DNA of 64,000 bases from positions 62,001 to 126,000 of the forward strand of contig DAIDHV010000004.1 in NCBI GenBank assembly GCA_027451905.1. The letters run 5' to 3'. The notes beneath the pieces were generated by a model. That model ran no database searches. It saw only the letters and a list, made by a program, of their open reading frames with translations, and was not told where the DNA came from. The position numbers were made by a program, and so were the translations under genes. The stretch comes from Armatimonadota bacterium. GTDB lineage: Bacteria > Armatimonadota > Fimbriimonadia > Fimbriimonadales > Fimbriimonadaceae. Within the stretch, counting starts at the first letter, position 1, and each line of letters begins with the position of its first letter. Positions 14,220-37,872 of this stretch are shown here, in pieces.

Positions 14220-14400
14220 ATTTTTTCCTTAAGTTTAGCGATTGAATCGCTTTTGACTCTTTATACCACGTGGGCATACCTTTCCTCTCATTAAATTTCT
14301 GATAACTTGAATACAAGCATTAAAAACTCTTGTGACCATTTCATTTGCAAATGCGTCATTATTAGAGGTAATAGCAGATTTGCCTGCTCCGCAAAGAATC

Positions 14401-15228
14401 ATGCTCAGCAAAAAGAATTCAACCATCGCATTAACCGCCTTGACGGTTGTTGCCTGTTCCAGTCAGGCCATGGCAGCCAAGGTTGCCAATATCGAAACCG
14501 GCCTCATTGGGGTCAAGCTTTACAGTACAGGTTTAACGGTTGTAGAGAAGTTTGGTTCTCCAGATTCTATTGAACCGGTCAACATTGGAACATCATCCGC
14601 GAATGGGGGTGGTGGACCATCGGGAGGCCCCGCTGGCGGTCCTGGTTTTCAGGGAAAAGGCGGCGGTCGTCCAACCATGGGTGGCGGCGGCGGTGGTGCT
14701 GCAGCTGGGCCACAATCAAATACGGGTCCATTGTCCTTTGGAGATGGTTTGCTACAGATGAGACCAGGAGGTGGCCCAATGGGTGGACCGATGGGCGGCC
14801 CTGGTGGCGGTGGTCCTGCTGGTCCAGTTGGCGGCCCTGCTGGTCCCGGAAAAGGTGCAGCCGGCGGAGCCGGTGGTCAGGGTACTGCGGTTGACTTTAC
14901 AAGGTGGGTTTACAATCGAAACGGCTCTGAGTACTCCTTTGTCTTTGATAAATACAACCGAGTCGTTCAGATTGAGGCGATTGGCCTCCACAATGGCTCA
15001 GTTCGAACAAAGCGCGGCGTCACGTTTGGTGCGTCTTTGGCTGAAGTCATCAAGAAGTACGCCAAGAACCCAGACGGACACTACGATCCACCGGCCTACG
15101 AAATTAACGGCAACACGATCGTTCTTAAGTTTCTTGTCAAGAATCACGTGGCTTTCCGATTCTCAAAGCTAGAAAAGAATGGTCCTGAAGTTGTCACAGG
15201 TATCGCCGTCGCTGGCGGAAAATACTGA
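14401..15228 (+). CDS. Secreted Gly/Pro/Met-rich protein with two BamE-like segments
   Basis: 275 residues from ATG 14401; an in-frame ATG at 14332 would place 23 extra residues before a normal signal peptide (MLSKKNSTIALTALTVVACSSQAMAA). Two similar segments flank a low-complexity insert. The first is GLIGVKLYSTGLTVVEKFGSPDS (split here: GVKLYSTGL, VVEKFGSPDS). The second is RGVTFGASLAEVIKKYAKNPDG (RGVTFGASL, EVIKKYAKNPDG). Each looks like the SmpA/BamE-type 'G-V...S...V...G-P' unit. Between them, about 120 residues are mostly Gly, Pro, Ala and Met, including GGGPMGGPMGGPGGGG. Likely periplasmic or outer-membrane associated. Function is unknown, and the BamE resemblance is only a pattern. 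Confidence 0.75.
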   Translation: MLSKKNSTIALTALTVVACSSQAMAAKVANIETGLIGVKLYSTGLTVVEKFGSPDSIEPVNIGTSSANGGGGPSGGPAGGPGFQGKGGGRPTMGGGGGGAAAGPQSNTGPLSFGDGLLQMRPGGGPMGGPMGGPGGGGPAGPVGGPAGPGKGAAGGAGGQGTAVDFTRWVYNRNGSEYSFVFDKYNRVVQIEAIGLHNGSVRTKRGVTFGASLAEVIKKYAKNPDGHYDPPAYEINGNTIVLKFLVKNHVAFRFSKLEKNGPEVVTGIAVAGGKY

Positions 15229-31682: not shown

Positions 31683-33428
31683 ATGAACTATCCAGGCAAA
31701 TTCTTGATCACGGTTGCAGCTACGATGCTGGCAGCCTGTGCTTTATCGCAAACTTTTTTTCAGGGAGACCCAAACATTATTCAGCCGAAGTCTGACTTTG
31801 CTGGACAAGGTCACTTTCACACCAATTACCTGATCAACGTCAGTCAAACTAGGAAAGCTCAGCTTTATACATTTTTGCATGAACACCAGGCGCCACGAAT
31901 GTTCTATGTCAGAAACGGCAAGATTCAGCCAATGGGTTTTGGTCCCGGACCTCAATCCGGCGTTCCTGGTTATGCTCCGGCCGACATTAGGGCCGCGTAT
32001 AATATTCCCGGAAATCTTGGATCTAATGCCATTGCCATTGTTGATGCCTTTGATGATCCAACCGCTCTTTCGGACTTCAACGCATTTAGTCAGCAATTCG
32101 GATTGCCATCCGAGCCTTCAACCAATCCAACTTCACCATCCAATAACGTTTTTCAGGTTGTTTATCAGAATGGGGTCGAGCCGACAGCTGACCCAGGTTG
32201 GGCTGGAGAAATCAGCCTTGACATTGAGTGGGCCCACGCCATGGCGCCGAGAGCAAAGATTTACTTAGTCGAAGCTCAAGACAACAGCAACAACCTTTAC
32301 AGTGCGGTTCAAATAGCCCAAGGGCTACCCAATGTGCGGGAAGTTTCGATGAGTTGGGGTGGTGGTGAATTCCCTGGAGAAAACTCTAGCGATAGCCTTT
32401 TCACTGGCAACAATATCGTCTATTTTGCTTCTTCGGGTGATGGCGGTTCCGGCACCATCTACCCAGCCGTTTCTCCTAACGTAGTGGGCGTTGGCGGAAC
32501 TTCCTTGGTGCTTGGTAGCAATGACTCATTTATCAGCGAAACGGCTTGGATTGGAAGCGGCGGAGGTCCCAGTTTCTACGAGCCGATACCTACCTATCAG
32601 AGCGTGGTTTCTGGTACCGTTGGTGCCTCCCGTGGTTGCCCCGATATTTCTGGTCCTGCCGACCCCTACGAAGGATGCGCCGTCTTTGGAATCTATGCCT
32701 TCGGCGGTTGGGCAGTCATTGGTGGAACAAGTTGGGCTAGCCCAACCGAGGCCGGTATCGCTAACGCAAGAGGAAAGTTCTCCACAAGTACCAACGCAGA
32801 ACTGACTCGCCTCTATCAGGAGTATTCGGTTGCAGGAACTTACGTTTCCTTGTATCGAGACATTACGGTAGGAAATACCGGAATCTTCAATGCTGGTCCT
32901 GGGTATGACTTCACGACCGGAGTTGGTTCCGCAACAAATCTATACCAAACAACACCGCCAAATCAGAATTTTGGGCCGCTTACGGTGACCCCAGAATTTG
33001 GAACGGTTGTATCTGGAAATGTTTCGAGCCTTCAGACGATCGACAATAATTCCTATGTAATGAAATGGGCACCCTTCTTTAAGATTGGGTCTGCCAGTGG
33101 CTACCAAACAACCTATCAGTTGCCTCTGCCTCTAAGCCAATACAAAGAACTGTACATTACATTTAATGCGCAGTCCTCAACCTTGGAGACTTATCAGCTG
33201 TATGCTTGGAATTACACCACCGGTAAGTTTGATAATCTGATACAACTGCACGGATCAAATGCATTCACAACTTACACTTACCAGTTCCCGCAAGCATCGT
33301 GGCAAAACTACGTTGATCCGAACGGTAACGCTAAAGTCGAGATCATATCTGAACTGAGTCGAAGATTGATTCAGCCGGTCAATCAAAACACAAGTACAGA
33401 CATGATTAATTTGCAGGTTGGATTCTAA
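31683..33428 (+). CDS. Secreted S53-family (sedolisin/kumamolisin-like) serine peptidase
   Basis: 581 residues with a signal peptide (FLITVAATMLAACALSQ). Sedolisin hallmarks: Glu and Asp spaced by three in GEISLDIEWAHAMAP (about residues 179-183), the oxyanion Asp in FASSGDGGSG, and the nucleophile in GGTSWASP (about 358). C-terminal calcium-site remnant: GYDFTTGVGS. Residues from 425 onward form an extra beta domain. Only about 60 residues lie between the signal peptide and the catalytic domain, far fewer than the usual inhibitory prodomain. Family members cleave proteins at acid pH; whether this one needs processing is unknown. Confidence 0.9.
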   Translation: MNYPGKFLITVAATMLAACALSQTFFQGDPNIIQPKSDFAGQGHFHTNYLINVSQTRKAQLYTFLHEHQAPRMFYVRNGKIQPMGFGPGPQSGVPGYAPADIRAAYNIPGNLGSNAIAIVDAFDDPTALSDFNAFSQQFGLPSEPSTNPTSPSNNVFQVVYQNGVEPTADPGWAGEISLDIEWAHAMAPRAKIYLVEAQDNSNNLYSAVQIAQGLPNVREVSMSWGGGEFPGENSSDSLFTGNNIVYFASSGDGGSGTIYPAVSPNVVGVGGTSLVLGSNDSFISETAWIGSGGGPSFYEPIPTYQSVVSGTVGASRGCPDISGPADPYEGCAVFGIYAFGGWAVIGGTSWASPTEAGIANARGKFSTSTNAELTRLYQEYSVAGTYVSLYRDITVGNTGIFNAGPGYDFTTGVGSATNLYQTTPPNQNFGPLTVTPEFGTVVSGNVSSLQTIDNNSYVMKWAPFFKIGSASGYQTTYQLPLPLSQYKELYITFNAQSSTLETYQLYAWNYTTGKFDNLIQLHGSNAFTTYTYQFPQASWQNYVDPNGNAKVEIISELSRRLIQPVNQNTSTDMINLQVGF

Positions 33429-33446
33429 CCTAGTCTGAAGCAGATA

Positions 33447-33487
33447 GGTAATCAGTCGAACTTTTGGTTCGGCTGATTACCTTTTTT
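33447..33487 (+). terminator. Strong intrinsic terminator after the S53 peptidase gene
   Basis: A 15-bp stem with one G-T pair (33447-33461 with 33467-33481), five-base loop, and a TTTTTT tail. Confidence 0.92.
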
Positions 33488-33548: not shown

Positions 33549-35189
33549 ATGGTAAAGGTTATTCCGCTTGGCGGAGTTGGAGAAATTGGGAAGAACTGCA
33601 CATTAGTTGAGGATGGCAATGAAATCCTTATTATTGACTGCGGCTTGAGCTTTCCGAACGAGGAAATGCCAGGGGTTGATATCGTTGTTCCCGATTTCAC
33701 TTACCTGGTTCAGAACAGCCGCAAGGTTCTTGGCGTCATCATAACCCATGCCCACGAAGATCATATTGGTGGGTTGCCATACTTGCTTCAAAAACTTAAT
33801 GTGCCAATTTATGCAACCGCGTTTACCCACGCGATGATGAAGCACAAATTGGAGGAAAAAGTCGGTAATAAATCCCTCCAACTCAAGACTTTTAAACCCG
33901 GAGAAGGGATTAAGGTTGGATCTTTCGAAGTAGAGACCATCCGCGTGACTCACTCAATTCCAGATAGCTGTGCGATTGCGGTCATGACAAGTGCAGGCGC
34001 GCTGCTGTTTACCGGTGATTTTAAGCTTGACTTTACTCCGGTTGACGGAAACCTAACTGATCTTGCCAAACTCACTCAAATCGGAAAAGAAGGGGTCTTA
34101 TGCCTCTTTAGCGATTCGACAAATGTGGATAGACCAGGTTGGGGACCAAGCGAAAGAACGGTTCTGCCAGGAATCCGCTCTGCCTTCGAGCATGCCCAAG
34201 GAAGAATCCTCATGACCACCTTTGCCAGCAACGTTCACCGAATGCAGCAGTTCATTGAGGTTGCCGCTGAACAGGGCAGGAAGGTTGGAGTTGTTGGGAG
34301 GCGCATGGAGCAGTCCATGGATATTTGTGAAAACCTTGGCTACATTAGGCTGCCCAAAGGGGTAAGGGTATCACTGGATGAGGTCAAGCAGATGCCAGAT
34401 CATCAGGCTGCCATTTTAACAACTGGCAGCCAAGGAGAACCGATGAGCGCACTTGTACAGATGTCTCGAGGCTCCTACGGACGTATGCAAATCAAAGAAG
34501 GCGACACCCTCATTTATTCCGCCCGCACTATCCCCGGCAACGAGGGCGCCATCTGGAGAACAATTAATCGGCTGTTTAAGCAGGGGTGCGAAGTCATTTA
34601 TGATGCGCCGACACCCGTGCACGTTTCTGGTCACGGTTATCAACAGGAGTTAATGATGATGGTGAATTTAGTTAAGCCCCACTTCATAGCTCCTGTCCAT
34701 GGAGAGCCAAGACACCAGCACCTCTATTCTAAACTGGTGCGAAGAATGGGATATCAAGATAACCGAATCTTCACAATGGAGGATGGCCGGCCCTTGGTTT
34801 TTGACGGCAAAAAGGCTTATCTTGATGAACCAGTTCCCCACGGAAGGGTGCTGATCGACAATAGCGGCTTGCCGGGGGTTACCGATGAAGTTTTACGAGA
34901 CCGATACAATGCAGCGAACGAAGGAATGGTTATTGTCACGGTTGTTATTGATGTTGATGAGGGCGAAGTTATTGGCGATCCCGTGGTGCAAGGCAAAGGA
35001 TTGCATGCCAACTCCAGCCTTTTAGACACCGTCCAATCGATGGTGACGGATGGCTTGTATTCTTTAAGCAAAGAAGAACTTTGTGACTTGAATCGAGTTC
35101 AATTAGAAGTTGTGGATATTGCAAAACGGACACTCCAAAAAAGAGGGCAAATTCGTCCATTGGTCATACCGTCGATCGTCAGTGTTTAA
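33549..35189 (+). CDS. rnj: Ribonuclease J
   Basis: 546 residues. A metallo-beta-lactamase/beta-CASP nuclease with 5'-exonuclease and endonuclease activity in mRNA decay and rRNA maturation. The zinc motif is THAHEDHIGG (about residues 76-85), with LFTGDFKLD, FSDSTNVDRPG, and the beta-CASP motifs ILTTGSQGEPMSAL and FIAPVHGEPRHQ. The C-terminal domain (VIPSIVSV end) is complete. The start is ATG 33549 after a short out-of-frame ATG. A single copy is seen here. Confidence 0.96.
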   Translation: MVKVIPLGGVGEIGKNCTLVEDGNEILIIDCGLSFPNEEMPGVDIVVPDFTYLVQNSRKVLGVIITHAHEDHIGGLPYLLQKLNVPIYATAFTHAMMKHKLEEKVGNKSLQLKTFKPGEGIKVGSFEVETIRVTHSIPDSCAIAVMTSAGALLFTGDFKLDFTPVDGNLTDLAKLTQIGKEGVLCLFSDSTNVDRPGWGPSERTVLPGIRSAFEHAQGRILMTTFASNVHRMQQFIEVAAEQGRKVGVVGRRMEQSMDICENLGYIRLPKGVRVSLDEVKQMPDHQAAILTTGSQGEPMSALVQMSRGSYGRMQIKEGDTLIYSARTIPGNEGAIWRTINRLFKQGCEVIYDAPTPVHVSGHGYQQELMMMVNLVKPHFIAPVHGEPRHQHLYSKLVRRMGYQDNRIFTMEDGRPLVFDGKKAYLDEPVPHGRVLIDNSGLPGVTDEVLRDRYNAANEGMVIVTVVIDVDEGEVIGDPVVQGKGLHANSSLLDTVQSMVTDGLYSLSKEELCDLNRVQLEVVDIAKRTLQKRGQIRPLVIPSIVSV

Positions 35190-35196
35190 TTTATCG

Positions 35197-36345
35197 TTGC
35201 CGCCATATAAAAGTCTGTGGTCTCTATTCAAAATTACTGGGCTTTTCTTGGGCTTTTTGGGAATTGCCGCTTCTTGCCATGCCCAAGTGGCCTATCTTAG
35301 CGTAGAGTCAGGGATTATTACGGTAGAAGCCAAGTTAAATAACAAGTACAATGCTGCATTTATCCTAGATCTCAACCGTTGCGATAGCGTCATAGATCCC
35401 TCGTTGTTAACCAGTGCCTCGGCGGCTAGAGATTTCATTGACCTGGCTGGCAAAAACCTAGGGGTTTTTAAGACCCTTAAAACCGGAATTGTCAAAGGAT
35501 CAATTGATGACAAAGGCGCAGTTGTTATCGGTTACTTAGGCAGGGATGTCTTGAAGGGCCAAACTGTAAAGCTAGATTTCGTTAATGGTGAGATGAAAAT
35601 CTCTAATTTGCCGATCACCATTCAGTCATCTTCAGCTCAGGTTTCGGAGCAGTTTACAGAGCACCTTTCTTGGTCCAAGGATGGCAAAGCCACCGTTGGT
35701 GGGGGCCAGTTAGGCAGCGTAGCCACTACAATCGTTCTGAGTTGGATTGATCGCGGTTGGTACGGGACGGTCCTCAGTACCACGCAGCTCACCAATAAGG
35801 TTAAGGTCACTCCAACTTTAGCAGCGCAGGGAAGCCTTCAATTGGGTTCCTATCGACTGGCGCCCAAGCCAATGAAGCTTTCCATTGGAACTTCTCAAAT
35901 TATCCATGCGCCGATTGTCGACCTTGACGCCAATTCGGTGGAATTCAACCTGAGCCAAAATGTGATTTCATTCCAGTTTCCAAGCCAATCCAGAGAATTT
36001 GCAGATTGGATTGGGCTGGCAACCCCATTTGAGGTTGATCCTCAACTCGATTCAAGTGGCAAAATGCAACTCACTGCGAGCCTAGACTCGCTTGGAGATT
36101 CCGGCCTTCCCGACGCCTTAAAAAGAATGTTGCATAGCAACCCGATCGTTGCTGTGGGAGGACATTCAGTTGACCATCTTTGGAAGTGGTGGAACGGGAC
36201 CGATCAAGCCGGACAAATCAAATTATGCCAATTTGCTGGCCAGTATATTGATCAAGTGGGAGTCCACGGCATCCGGTTTCCAATGAGCGTCCAGACCCCC
36301 TACGGCCTTGAGGAGTTCAATCTCTTTTATACTGCAAAATCATGA
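35197..36345 (+). CDS. Secreted protein with decayed aspartic-protease-like fold, copy 1
   Basis: About 382 residues from TTG 35197, just after the rnj stop. The frame is open upstream inside rnj, but this start gives a clean signal peptide (LFKITGLFLGFLGIAASCHAQ). Residues about 45-60 read FILDLNRCDSVIDPSLL where retropepsin-like proteins have a D-T-G-A active site. Residues about 106-125 read GYLGRDVLKGQTVKLDF, the usual 'G-x-LG-x-[DN]-x-L...D' second landmark. The catalytic D-T-G is therefore replaced by D-L-N. A second half repeats similar strands. Its neighbour is a paralogue. Function unknown; likely periplasmic binding or scaffold rather than a protease. Confidence 0.7.
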   Translation: MPPYKSLWSLFKITGLFLGFLGIAASCHAQVAYLSVESGIITVEAKLNNKYNAAFILDLNRCDSVIDPSLLTSASAARDFIDLAGKNLGVFKTLKTGIVKGSIDDKGAVVIGYLGRDVLKGQTVKLDFVNGEMKISNLPITIQSSSAQVSEQFTEHLSWSKDGKATVGGGQLGSVATTIVLSWIDRGWYGTVLSTTQLTNKVKVTPTLAAQGSLQLGSYRLAPKPMKLSIGTSQIIHAPIVDLDANSVEFNLSQNVISFQFPSQSREFADWIGLATPFEVDPQLDSSGKMQLTASLDSLGDSGLPDALKRMLHSNPIVAVGGHSVDHLWKWWNGTDQAGQIKLCQFAGQYIDQVGVHGIRFPMSVQTPYGLEEFNLFYTAKS

Positions 36346-37457
36346 CAAAGTCTCTGGTTTTTTCCTTTTTAAGTTTGCTATTGCCTGCCGCAAGTTGCCA
36401 GGCTAGCGGGCCAATAAACTTAAAGCTAATCCGATTTCAACATCGCATTTTTGTTGATGCTAAAGTAGGTCAAAAGACGGTGCCGCTGGAGTTGGACCTT
36501 TCGATGGAAGACTCAAGGATTGACCCCTATATGTCGAACATCATGAGTTCTAACCCTGTTCAATTGTCGATTGGCGGGTTTTCACTTGAGGTGCCAGTGA
36601 AGGCGGCACTCGGGCCAATTGGATACTTTAAGGTAGGAGGAAAAGACGTCGAAGGGTATCTTGGTCAGAATGCCTTTGCCGGCAAAATCCTGTTGTTTTC
36701 TGGGGCGGATCGTCTCACCCTTTTTTCGGAAAGCCAATGGGGCCAATATAGGGACGAATCTGGTCTTTCAATCAAAGGTTCGGTTGAAACTGACCTAATC
36801 AAACTCCAGTCTGGTCTTTATGCGATTCCCATCCGCTCTAATCGGGGCAAAACCCTGTTTGCCGAGCTGCAAGTTAATGGAGACTACGTCCATTTAAAGA
36901 AAAGTGATTTGTCGGCGGTTTGGTTGGGACTTTCGCAAGAAAAGGCAGAAAGTGGAGATGGGGTTGCGGTTGTCGGAGGGCTGTCGATTGGCGCACAGAC
37001 ATTAATACCTTTTGGCATTGCTATCCAGGAATCTCCAATTGATCCATACCATCAGCACGTCAATTTAAAGATTCCGGACTCTTGCATCGTAGGAAATGAA
37101 TTTGCCATTGATTTTTCTCGACATCACTTTATCCAACCCAAAATGGAAGGAATCGACCTCCTTTGCTACCTTCTGGAGGGGCAAGATATCCTGAGTTGCC
37201 ACGTCAAGGATGGAAAACTCTATGCTGGTGATGATGATAATGTTGCCCCCAAGCAGCAGCCCTATCTCAGTCCAATTTCTAATATCGGTGCCTTGAGGAT
37301 TTCTGACCTTGCCAGTTGGATTACAGGAAAGTCAAAGGAAGCGGTTCTTAATTTCGAAAAGGCGTTCGATAGTATTTTAAACGCTCAGGCCAGCACTAAA
37401 ACCTTAGAAGTCACTTTTCAAACTCCGGACGGTCCCCGTCAGCTTCAGTTGAAGTAG
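36342..37457 (+). CDS. Secreted protein with decayed aspartic-protease-like fold, copy 2
   Basis: 371 residues, ATGA overlap with the upstream paralogue. Signal peptide SLVFSFLSLLLPAASCQA. Residues about 46-62 read VPLELDLSMEDSRIDPYM, matching the D-L-N-R site of copy 1 with D-L-S, again without a catalytic D-T-G. Residues about 104-120 read GYLGQNAFAGKILLFSG, matching the second landmark of copy 1. The C-terminus ends VTFQTPDGPRQLQLK, similar in style to the VQTPYGLEEFNL end of copy 1. Clearly paired by coupling and likeness; function unknown. Confidence 0.7.
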   Translation: MTKSLVFSFLSLLLPAASCQASGPINLKLIRFQHRIFVDAKVGQKTVPLELDLSMEDSRIDPYMSNIMSSNPVQLSIGGFSLEVPVKAALGPIGYFKVGGKDVEGYLGQNAFAGKILLFSGADRLTLFSESQWGQYRDESGLSIKGSVETDLIKLQSGLYAIPIRSNRGKTLFAELQVNGDYVHLKKSDLSAVWLGLSQEKAESGDGVAVVGGLSIGAQTLIPFGIAIQESPIDPYHQHVNLKIPDSCIVGNEFAIDFSRHHFIQPKMEGIDLLCYLLEGQDILSCHVKDGKLYAGDDDNVAPKQQPYLSPISNIGALRISDLASWITGKSKEAVLNFEKAFDSILNAQASTKTLEVTFQTPDGPRQLQLK

Positions 37458-37464
37458 AAATCCC

Positions 37465-37872
37465 TTACGGCTTAGCTTGCCTTTCAAGAAAGTTTTGCAT
37501 GGACTGGAGGGTGGATTGGCTAACATGATGTTCAATTCCTTCCGCATCCGTTTCTGCGGTTGCTTCATCAACCCCAATCGCAAGAAGAAAGTCATGGACT
37601 AACTTGTGCCGTTCTTGACAGCTTTTGGCCATGGCATGTCCTGCTTCTGTGAGAAAAATGCTTCGGTATGGCTGGGAAGAGATCAGACCTTCTTTCTGAA
37701 GCCGTTTTAATGTTTTGGTGACGGTGACCGAGCTGATGGCTAACGCGTTGGCCAAGTCGACGGTTCTCGCTTCACCAGATTCTTGGATCAGATTGCTGAT
37801 CAGCTCGACGTAGTCTTCTGCAGTTTCTCGACCATGAGCCTCACGCGTTGACCGAAATGGATTGGGGCGCAT
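37465..37872 (-). CDS. DtxR/MntR-family metal-dependent regulator
   Basis: 135 residues: a winged helix (VDLANALAISSVTVTKTLKRLQKEGLI, about 37-63) followed by the metal-binding dimerisation region with GHAMAKSCQERHKLVHDFLLAIGV and DAEGIEHHVSQSTLQ, which carry the conserved Cys/His/Glu ligands. Such regulators repress manganese or iron transporters when metal is bound. No metal transporter is adjacent; the gene is divergent from ftsE. Mn versus Fe specificity is not assigned. Confidence 0.88.
   Translation of the reverse strand: MRPNPFRSTREAHGRETAEDYVELISNLIQESGEARTVDLANALAISSVTVTKTLKRLQKEGLISSQPYRSIFLTEAGHAMAKSCQERHKLVHDFLLAIGVDEATAETDAEGIEHHVSQSTLQSMQNFLERQAKP

Follow-up and report, generated by a model that had tools for sequence, protein, structure and literature searches.

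Two adjacent genes, here named P1 and P2, follow the ribonuclease J gene (rnj) in the window, i.e., the whole 64,000-nucleotide stretch of Armatimonadota DNA that we analysed. Their products carry an LDL segment at the place where a retropepsin-like aspartic protease would have its catalytic D-T-G triplet, which raises the question of whether they descend from such proteases and, if so, what has become of the active site.

The P1-P2 gene pair

P1 starts 8 nt past the last base of rnj, leaving a gap of 7 nt, and the ATG of P2 overlaps the TGA of P1 (ATGA), in agreement with a sequence-only reading of this locus that had described the genes as coupled to each other and placed behind rnj (Table 1). 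For both genes, codon usage favours the annotated frame over the other five. The two proteins are paralogues: BLASTP aligned them with E 4e-4 and 30% identity across 105 aa, their overall identity is 22%, and both retain LDL..DS.IDP in lobe 1. We claim no constraint from the conservation between them, because its best 13-column window, which lies at the signal peptide, was reached by 506 of 5000 shuffles. As the same reading had stated, both N termini are signal-peptide-like when judged by eye, and they finish in AASC[HQ]A. We infer that both proteins are exported; since AASC occurs in both N termini, either the signal peptidase I or the lipoprotein route is possible.

The gene overlap suggests that P1 and P2 may function jointly. 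A terminator scan of the gap between rnj and P1 detected no terminator-like site and a strong hairpin precedes rnj; thus, rnj, P1 and P2 may form one transcript.

Table 1. Features of the rnj-P1-P2 region (positions in the window)
Feature	Positions	Strand	Description	Basis
Terminator-like hairpin	33446..33482	+	strong, 17 pairs, upstream of rnj	terminator scan
rnj	33549..35189	+	ribonuclease J, upstream gene	Pfam RNase_J_b_CASP
P1	35197..36345	+	382 aa, predicted secreted protein or lipoprotein; TTG start, TGA stop	ORF
P1 signal-peptide-like segment	35197..35283	+	MPPYKSLWSLFKITGLFLGFLGIAASCHA, then Q	judged by eye
P1 lobe-1 triplet	35368..35376	+	D-L-N (L-D-L-N) at the D-T-G position	12/12 alignment settings
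P1 GYLG	35530..35541	+	GYLGRDVL, retropepsin GxLGxDxL landmark	sequence, profile-profile alignment
P1 probable lobe-2 triplet	35749..35757	+	D-R-G (DRGWYGTVL)	10/12 alignment settings; region alone unrecognised by profiles
P1 C-terminal part	35998..36342	+	probable degenerate PDZ-like domain, NPIVAVGGHSVDHLW	colinear in profile-profile alignment; no Pfam match
P2	36342..37457	+	371 aa, predicted secreted protein or lipoprotein; ATG start	ORF
P2 signal-peptide-like segment	36342..36404	+	MTKSLVFSFLSLLLPAASCQA, then S	judged by eye
P2 lobe-1 triplet	36495..36503	+	D-L-S (L-D-L-S) at the D-T-G position	12/12 alignment settings
P2 GYLG	36654..36665	+	GYLGQNAF landmark	sequence, profile-profile alignment
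P2 probable lobe-2 position	36870..36878	+	Q-V-N (Asp probably lost)	8/12 alignment settings
dtxR	37465..37872	-	metal-dependent repressor of the DtxR type; converges on P2	Pfam Fe_dep_repress

Descent from retropepsin-like proteases

Direct searches did not connect the pair to any protease family. P1 and P2 matched no Pfam family at E values up to 10, PF13650, PF13975 and PF00077 included, and no PHROGs entry; a PDB sequence search with P1 as the query was empty, and scans of the genome contigs with P1 or with the pair yielded no relative. NCBIfam gave no retropepsin-type match for either protein; a flagellar hook assembly model hit P2 with E 0.0019, but its 17.9 bits fell far short of the cut-off (267), and we took the hit as chance.

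The relationship emerged through intermediate members. Based on a Pfam Asp_protease_2 (PF13650) search of 41 genomes, we identified a canonical family of secreted proteins in this order, A2, of approximately 390 aa, with a full-length match in 33 genomes, among them all 25 of the window's family and the present genome (locus L104). In 12 aligned members, lobe 1 carries DTG (DSG in one) and lobe 2 carries DTG, and the three members scanned have a clear PDZ domain. The pair shares with A2 its length, a signal-peptide-like N terminus and, probably, the succession of two lobes and a C-terminal domain; unlike P1 and P2, A2 has intact DTG/DSG triplets, a clear PDZ domain and full-length matches in most of the genomes searched. 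In profile-profile comparison, the pair matched A2 with a probability of 65.9 and E 5.7e-5, the LDL region falling on the DTG region.

A second profile, A4, was built from 13 divergent relatives of other genera, with P1 and P2 excluded. Searched against the whole genome, it recovered P1 (E 2.1e-6), P2 (E 1.7e-3) and a third gene, L177 (E 4.5e-4), which is an intact DSG/DTG member. By hhalign, the pair matched A4 with a probability of 96.9 and E 1.6e-10 over 302 columns; A4 matched A2 in turn (probability 98.5, E 2.8e-15), and its best PDB sequence matches were retropepsins, namely the retroviral protease 3nr6 (E 9e-4), Ddi1 and HIV-1 protease. Since two of the 13 A4 sequences had been picked through weak similarity to P1 and P2, the test was repeated with 10 other relatives, seven with both sites intact and three with one. 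This profile recovered P1 with E 4.9e-7 and P2 with E 0.021, and the values became 5.5e-4 and 9.9e-6 when eight canonical sequences were added; the best of 4000 shuffled controls reached 0.51 and 0.55. The hhalign comparison of the pair with the 10 relatives gave E 7.3e-7, and the best of 100 column-shuffled pairs gave 0.07. Most of the 10 relatives were reached from a single lead, L107, so full independence lies with the A2 comparison. Taken with their shuffled controls, these searches support the descent of P1 and P2 from retropepsin-like aspartic proteases, the ancestry proposed in the sequence-only reading, although the link runs through intermediates and not through a direct family match.

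L104 (DTG/DTG/PDZ) and L177 (DSG/DTG) are paralogues of the active type in the same genome. L177 (positions 316-2040 of that locus, contig C1) encodes 574 aa and has a long C-terminal extension.

Catalytic sites and domain plan

The LDL and GYLG segments pointed out earlier are present in both proteins. The DTG/DSG relatives of the active type align with LDL in all 12 settings, an outcome in favour of the sequence-only reading, which had named misalignment at this place as refuting, and GYLGRDVL (P1) and GYLGQNAF (P2) align with DGYLGMDVL and similar segments of the relatives. The canonical D-T/S-G is absent, the lobe-1 triplets being DLN and DLS and the lobe-2 triplets probably DRG and QVN. 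Both lobe-1 triplets have Leu in place of Thr and, in place of Gly, Asn (P1) or Ser (P2), and their aspartate, D58 of P1 and D52 of P2, is retained, so the statement that the catalytic triplet was lost holds for its second and third residues and not for its first. The further statement that the triplet was lost in a similar way in both copies is borne out in lobe 1 and probably fails in lobe 2: the aspartate there, D185, is probably kept in P1, as are two further residues of DTGxxxT, the Gly and the second Thr (10 of 12 settings), and it is probably lost in P2.

The second lobe and the PDZ domain, both seen in the relatives, had been overlooked. Lobe 1 is the only statistically secure part of the homology, and the profiles did not recognise the C-terminal two thirds of either protein in isolation, where the best E values by hhalign were 0.13 and 0.0025. 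Nevertheless, given the colinearity over 302 columns and the equal length of the relatives, the plan of P1 and P2 is probably two retropepsin lobes followed by a PDZ-like end. AlphaFold2 models had very low confidence, both for P1 with P2 as the single other row (pLDDT 29.3) and for lobe 1 alone (pLDDT 38.6).

Divergent relatives and loss of the motif

In searches of 113 genomes from the order and 291 from the phylum, the profile of the pair itself had the pair as its only strong match; no close relative was found in which co-occurrence of the two genes could be followed. Two weak matches were obtained (E 0.013 and 0.033), and one of them, L107, led to the very divergent group represented by A4. 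This group includes a tandem pair in genome G013, each protein of which carries DTG in its two lobes, members with DSG/DTG, and motif-less members. Several DTG members pass the Pfam cut-off and the motif-less ones have no Pfam match of this kind, forming a graded series. The pair resembles these proteins (L171 and L135 of G013, and L113-L116) in length, a GxLGxDxL-like landmark and, probably, plan and a degenerate PDZ-like end; many A4 members likewise have weak or no Pfam matches, and some are in tandem. Unlike P1 and P2, several keep DTG/DSG in both lobes, and others have lost the motif differently (TMI, SPL, ATY, EPL, GTN).

We tabulated 32 sequences, eight canonical (from the 33 genomes with full-length matches or from others) and 24 non-canonical, P1 and P2 included; the latter were picked from the best matches, and many partial A4-profile matches were left out. 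Within this selection of 24, D[T/S]G is found in both lobes of 8, in one lobe of 3 and in neither lobe of 13, the lobe-2 states of the motif-less sequences resting on a single alignment. On the poorly resolved tree of the 32 sequences, the fewest changes required are 5 for lobe 1 and 6 for lobe 2. The family is very fast-changing, some members keeping the motif and many being without it, and the gene has apparently persisted through several losses of the retropepsin motif. P1 and P2, which have very long branches, are not joined in this tree, and their sister relationship is not rejected (AU p 0.44). The motif may have been lost either before the duplication that gave P1 and P2 or in parallel after it.

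Among the other candidates, a 378-aa frame on contig C5 of this genome (L013), one of two weak matches there, was discarded because it lacks the retropepsin landmark by eye, and L005, L008, L009, L108 and L109 were judged by eye to be unrelated. Tandem pairs recur in this superfamily: the genes at L171:1937-4306 (G013) are both DTG/DTG, and those at L169:1611-3829 (G052) overlap and are DSG/DTG and DTG/DTG. In L113-L116, from four genomes of one genus (G059, G056, G057 and G054), the motif-less relative has as its neighbour a gene encoding an ATP:guanido phosphotransferase domain (a Pfam match checked on L113).

Genomic neighbourhood

Beyond dtxR lie ftsE, ftsX and an M23 peptidase gene. Judged by RNase J (62%), G006 is the nearest relative; there, rnj lies directly next to the dtxR homologue, which was located by tblastn, ftsE comes next, and neither P1 nor P2 is present. 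The pair, being absent between rnj and dtxR there, was either gained in the lineage of the window or lost in that of G006. The 85 genomes of the family that were searched include no other genome of the genus.

Proximity to rnj was rejected as a general rule. In G074, of a second genus, three tandem DTG genes of approximately 300 aa are followed by an HTH-like gene and rnj (L170:390-5001); they belong to another subfamily and lie on the other side of rnj. Since each genome has several such genes and 85 genomes of the family were searched, this proximity is likely due to chance.

Elsewhere in the window, positions 31683-33428 encode a secreted-looking protein of 581 aa with no Pfam match at E 1e-8 or better; its GGTSWASP segment is reminiscent of sedolisin-type peptidases. 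Positions 14332-15228 encode a protein that contains a long low-complexity stretch rich in Gly and Pro.

Possible function of P1 and P2

The reading that we consider probable takes P1 and P2 as exported pseudo-proteases, coupled in translation, that are relatives, now diverged, of a secreted protein with two retropepsin lobes and a PDZ domain. Each protein would adopt the fold of a single bilobal pseudo-dimer of the pepsin-like type, with a cleft that would no longer cut efficiently, the Thr and Gly of lobe 1 being replaced in both and the lobe-2 aspartate of P2 probably being lost. The old cleft, and perhaps also the PDZ-like end, would hold peptides or a partner protein, which might be a substrate of the active paralogues of the same genome or one of these paralogues. 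Binding instead of cleavage, which the sequence-only reading had also proposed, would be the likely role. Loss of all activity is likely as well, although some activity of P1 is possible because P1 probably keeps both aspartates.

This last point is what speaks for P1, alone or with P2, as a working aspartic protease of altered specificity or low activity with an unusual D-L-N and D-R-G site: the lobe-1 aspartate is firmly aligned in both proteins, and the lobe-2 Asp, Gly and later Thr of P1 are probable. The Thr and Gly of the triplet are structurally required in known retropepsins, however, and both are replaced in lobe 1 of P1 and P2; P2 lacks the lobe-2 aspartate in the likeliest alignment, and relatives have lost the motif outright, so we regard such a protease as unlikely. 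A still less likely variant is an obligate P1-P2 hetero-complex in which D-L-N/D-R-G of P1 and D-L-S of P2 would build a composite active site, i.e., a secreted aspartic peptidase free of D-T-G, or which would activate or inhibit the active paralogues. Convergence is disfavoured to a comparable extent: that P1 and P2 are secreted beta-rich proteins of non-homologous origin would explain the lack of direct family matches and the unrecognised C-terminal parts, but it is contradicted by the E values against the profiles of the relatives with their shuffled controls and by the correct spacing of the DTGxxxS/T and GxLGxDxL landmarks.

The strong matches limited to one genome, the absence from the rnj-dtxR interval of G006 and the very long branches would also fit remnants, i.e., duplicates that, once inserted behind rnj, have drifted without a function and are on the way to being lost. 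Against such drift, to which we give as little credence as to a working protease, both genes have kept signal-peptide-like ends, the ATGA overlap and LDL..DS.IDP of lobe 1; additionally, the full-length frames and in-frame codon usage despite 22% identity indicate that both outlived a long divergence. The nearby ftsE, ftsX, M23 peptidase and DtxR-type genes could instead point to ligand-binding envelope proteins with a role unrelated to proteases, which might, for example, work with an FtsEX-M23 cell-wall module or be controlled by the metal-dependent repressor. These neighbours are present in G006 without the pair, and the convergent orientation of dtxR places them on a separate transcription unit, which makes this explanation quite unlikely. 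Of the pseudo-protease reading, the data establish the lobe-1 homology, the altered triplets, the gene overlap, the active-type paralogues of this genome and the recurrent motif loss among relatives; export, the fold, the second lobe and PDZ-like end of P1 and P2, the loss of activity, the binding role and the partnership of P1 with P2 are inferred.

Some features of P1 and P2 have parallels in described systems. RloA of Pseudomonas (PMC12239564), a secreted retropepsin-like protease, resembles P1 and P2 in being bacterial, in its signal peptide and in its relationship to retropepsins; it differs in forming active homodimers with DTG at the dimer interface, for which cleavage of glutamate-rich peptides was shown, and the word PDZ is absent from the article. 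RC1339/APRc of Rickettsia (PMC4140852) is likewise bacterial and retropepsin-like, but it is reported as an aspartic protease with retropepsin-like properties. The tick pseudo-aspartic peptidase (PMC6345952) is described as without the second catalytic aspartate and resembles the pair as an aspartic-peptidase relative deprived of a catalytic Asp, although it is eukaryotic. In the open-licence literature, we found no paper on a bacterial group of secreted retropepsin-like proteins that lose the motif. P1 and P2 point to such a group, made up of secreted proteins of bacteria among which the catalytic motif of retropepsins has apparently been lost repeatedly, with intact paralogues present in the same genomes. 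The states observed (DTG, DSG, DTS, DLN, EPL and others) form a natural series in which the role of a pepsin-like cleft that does not cut may be asked.
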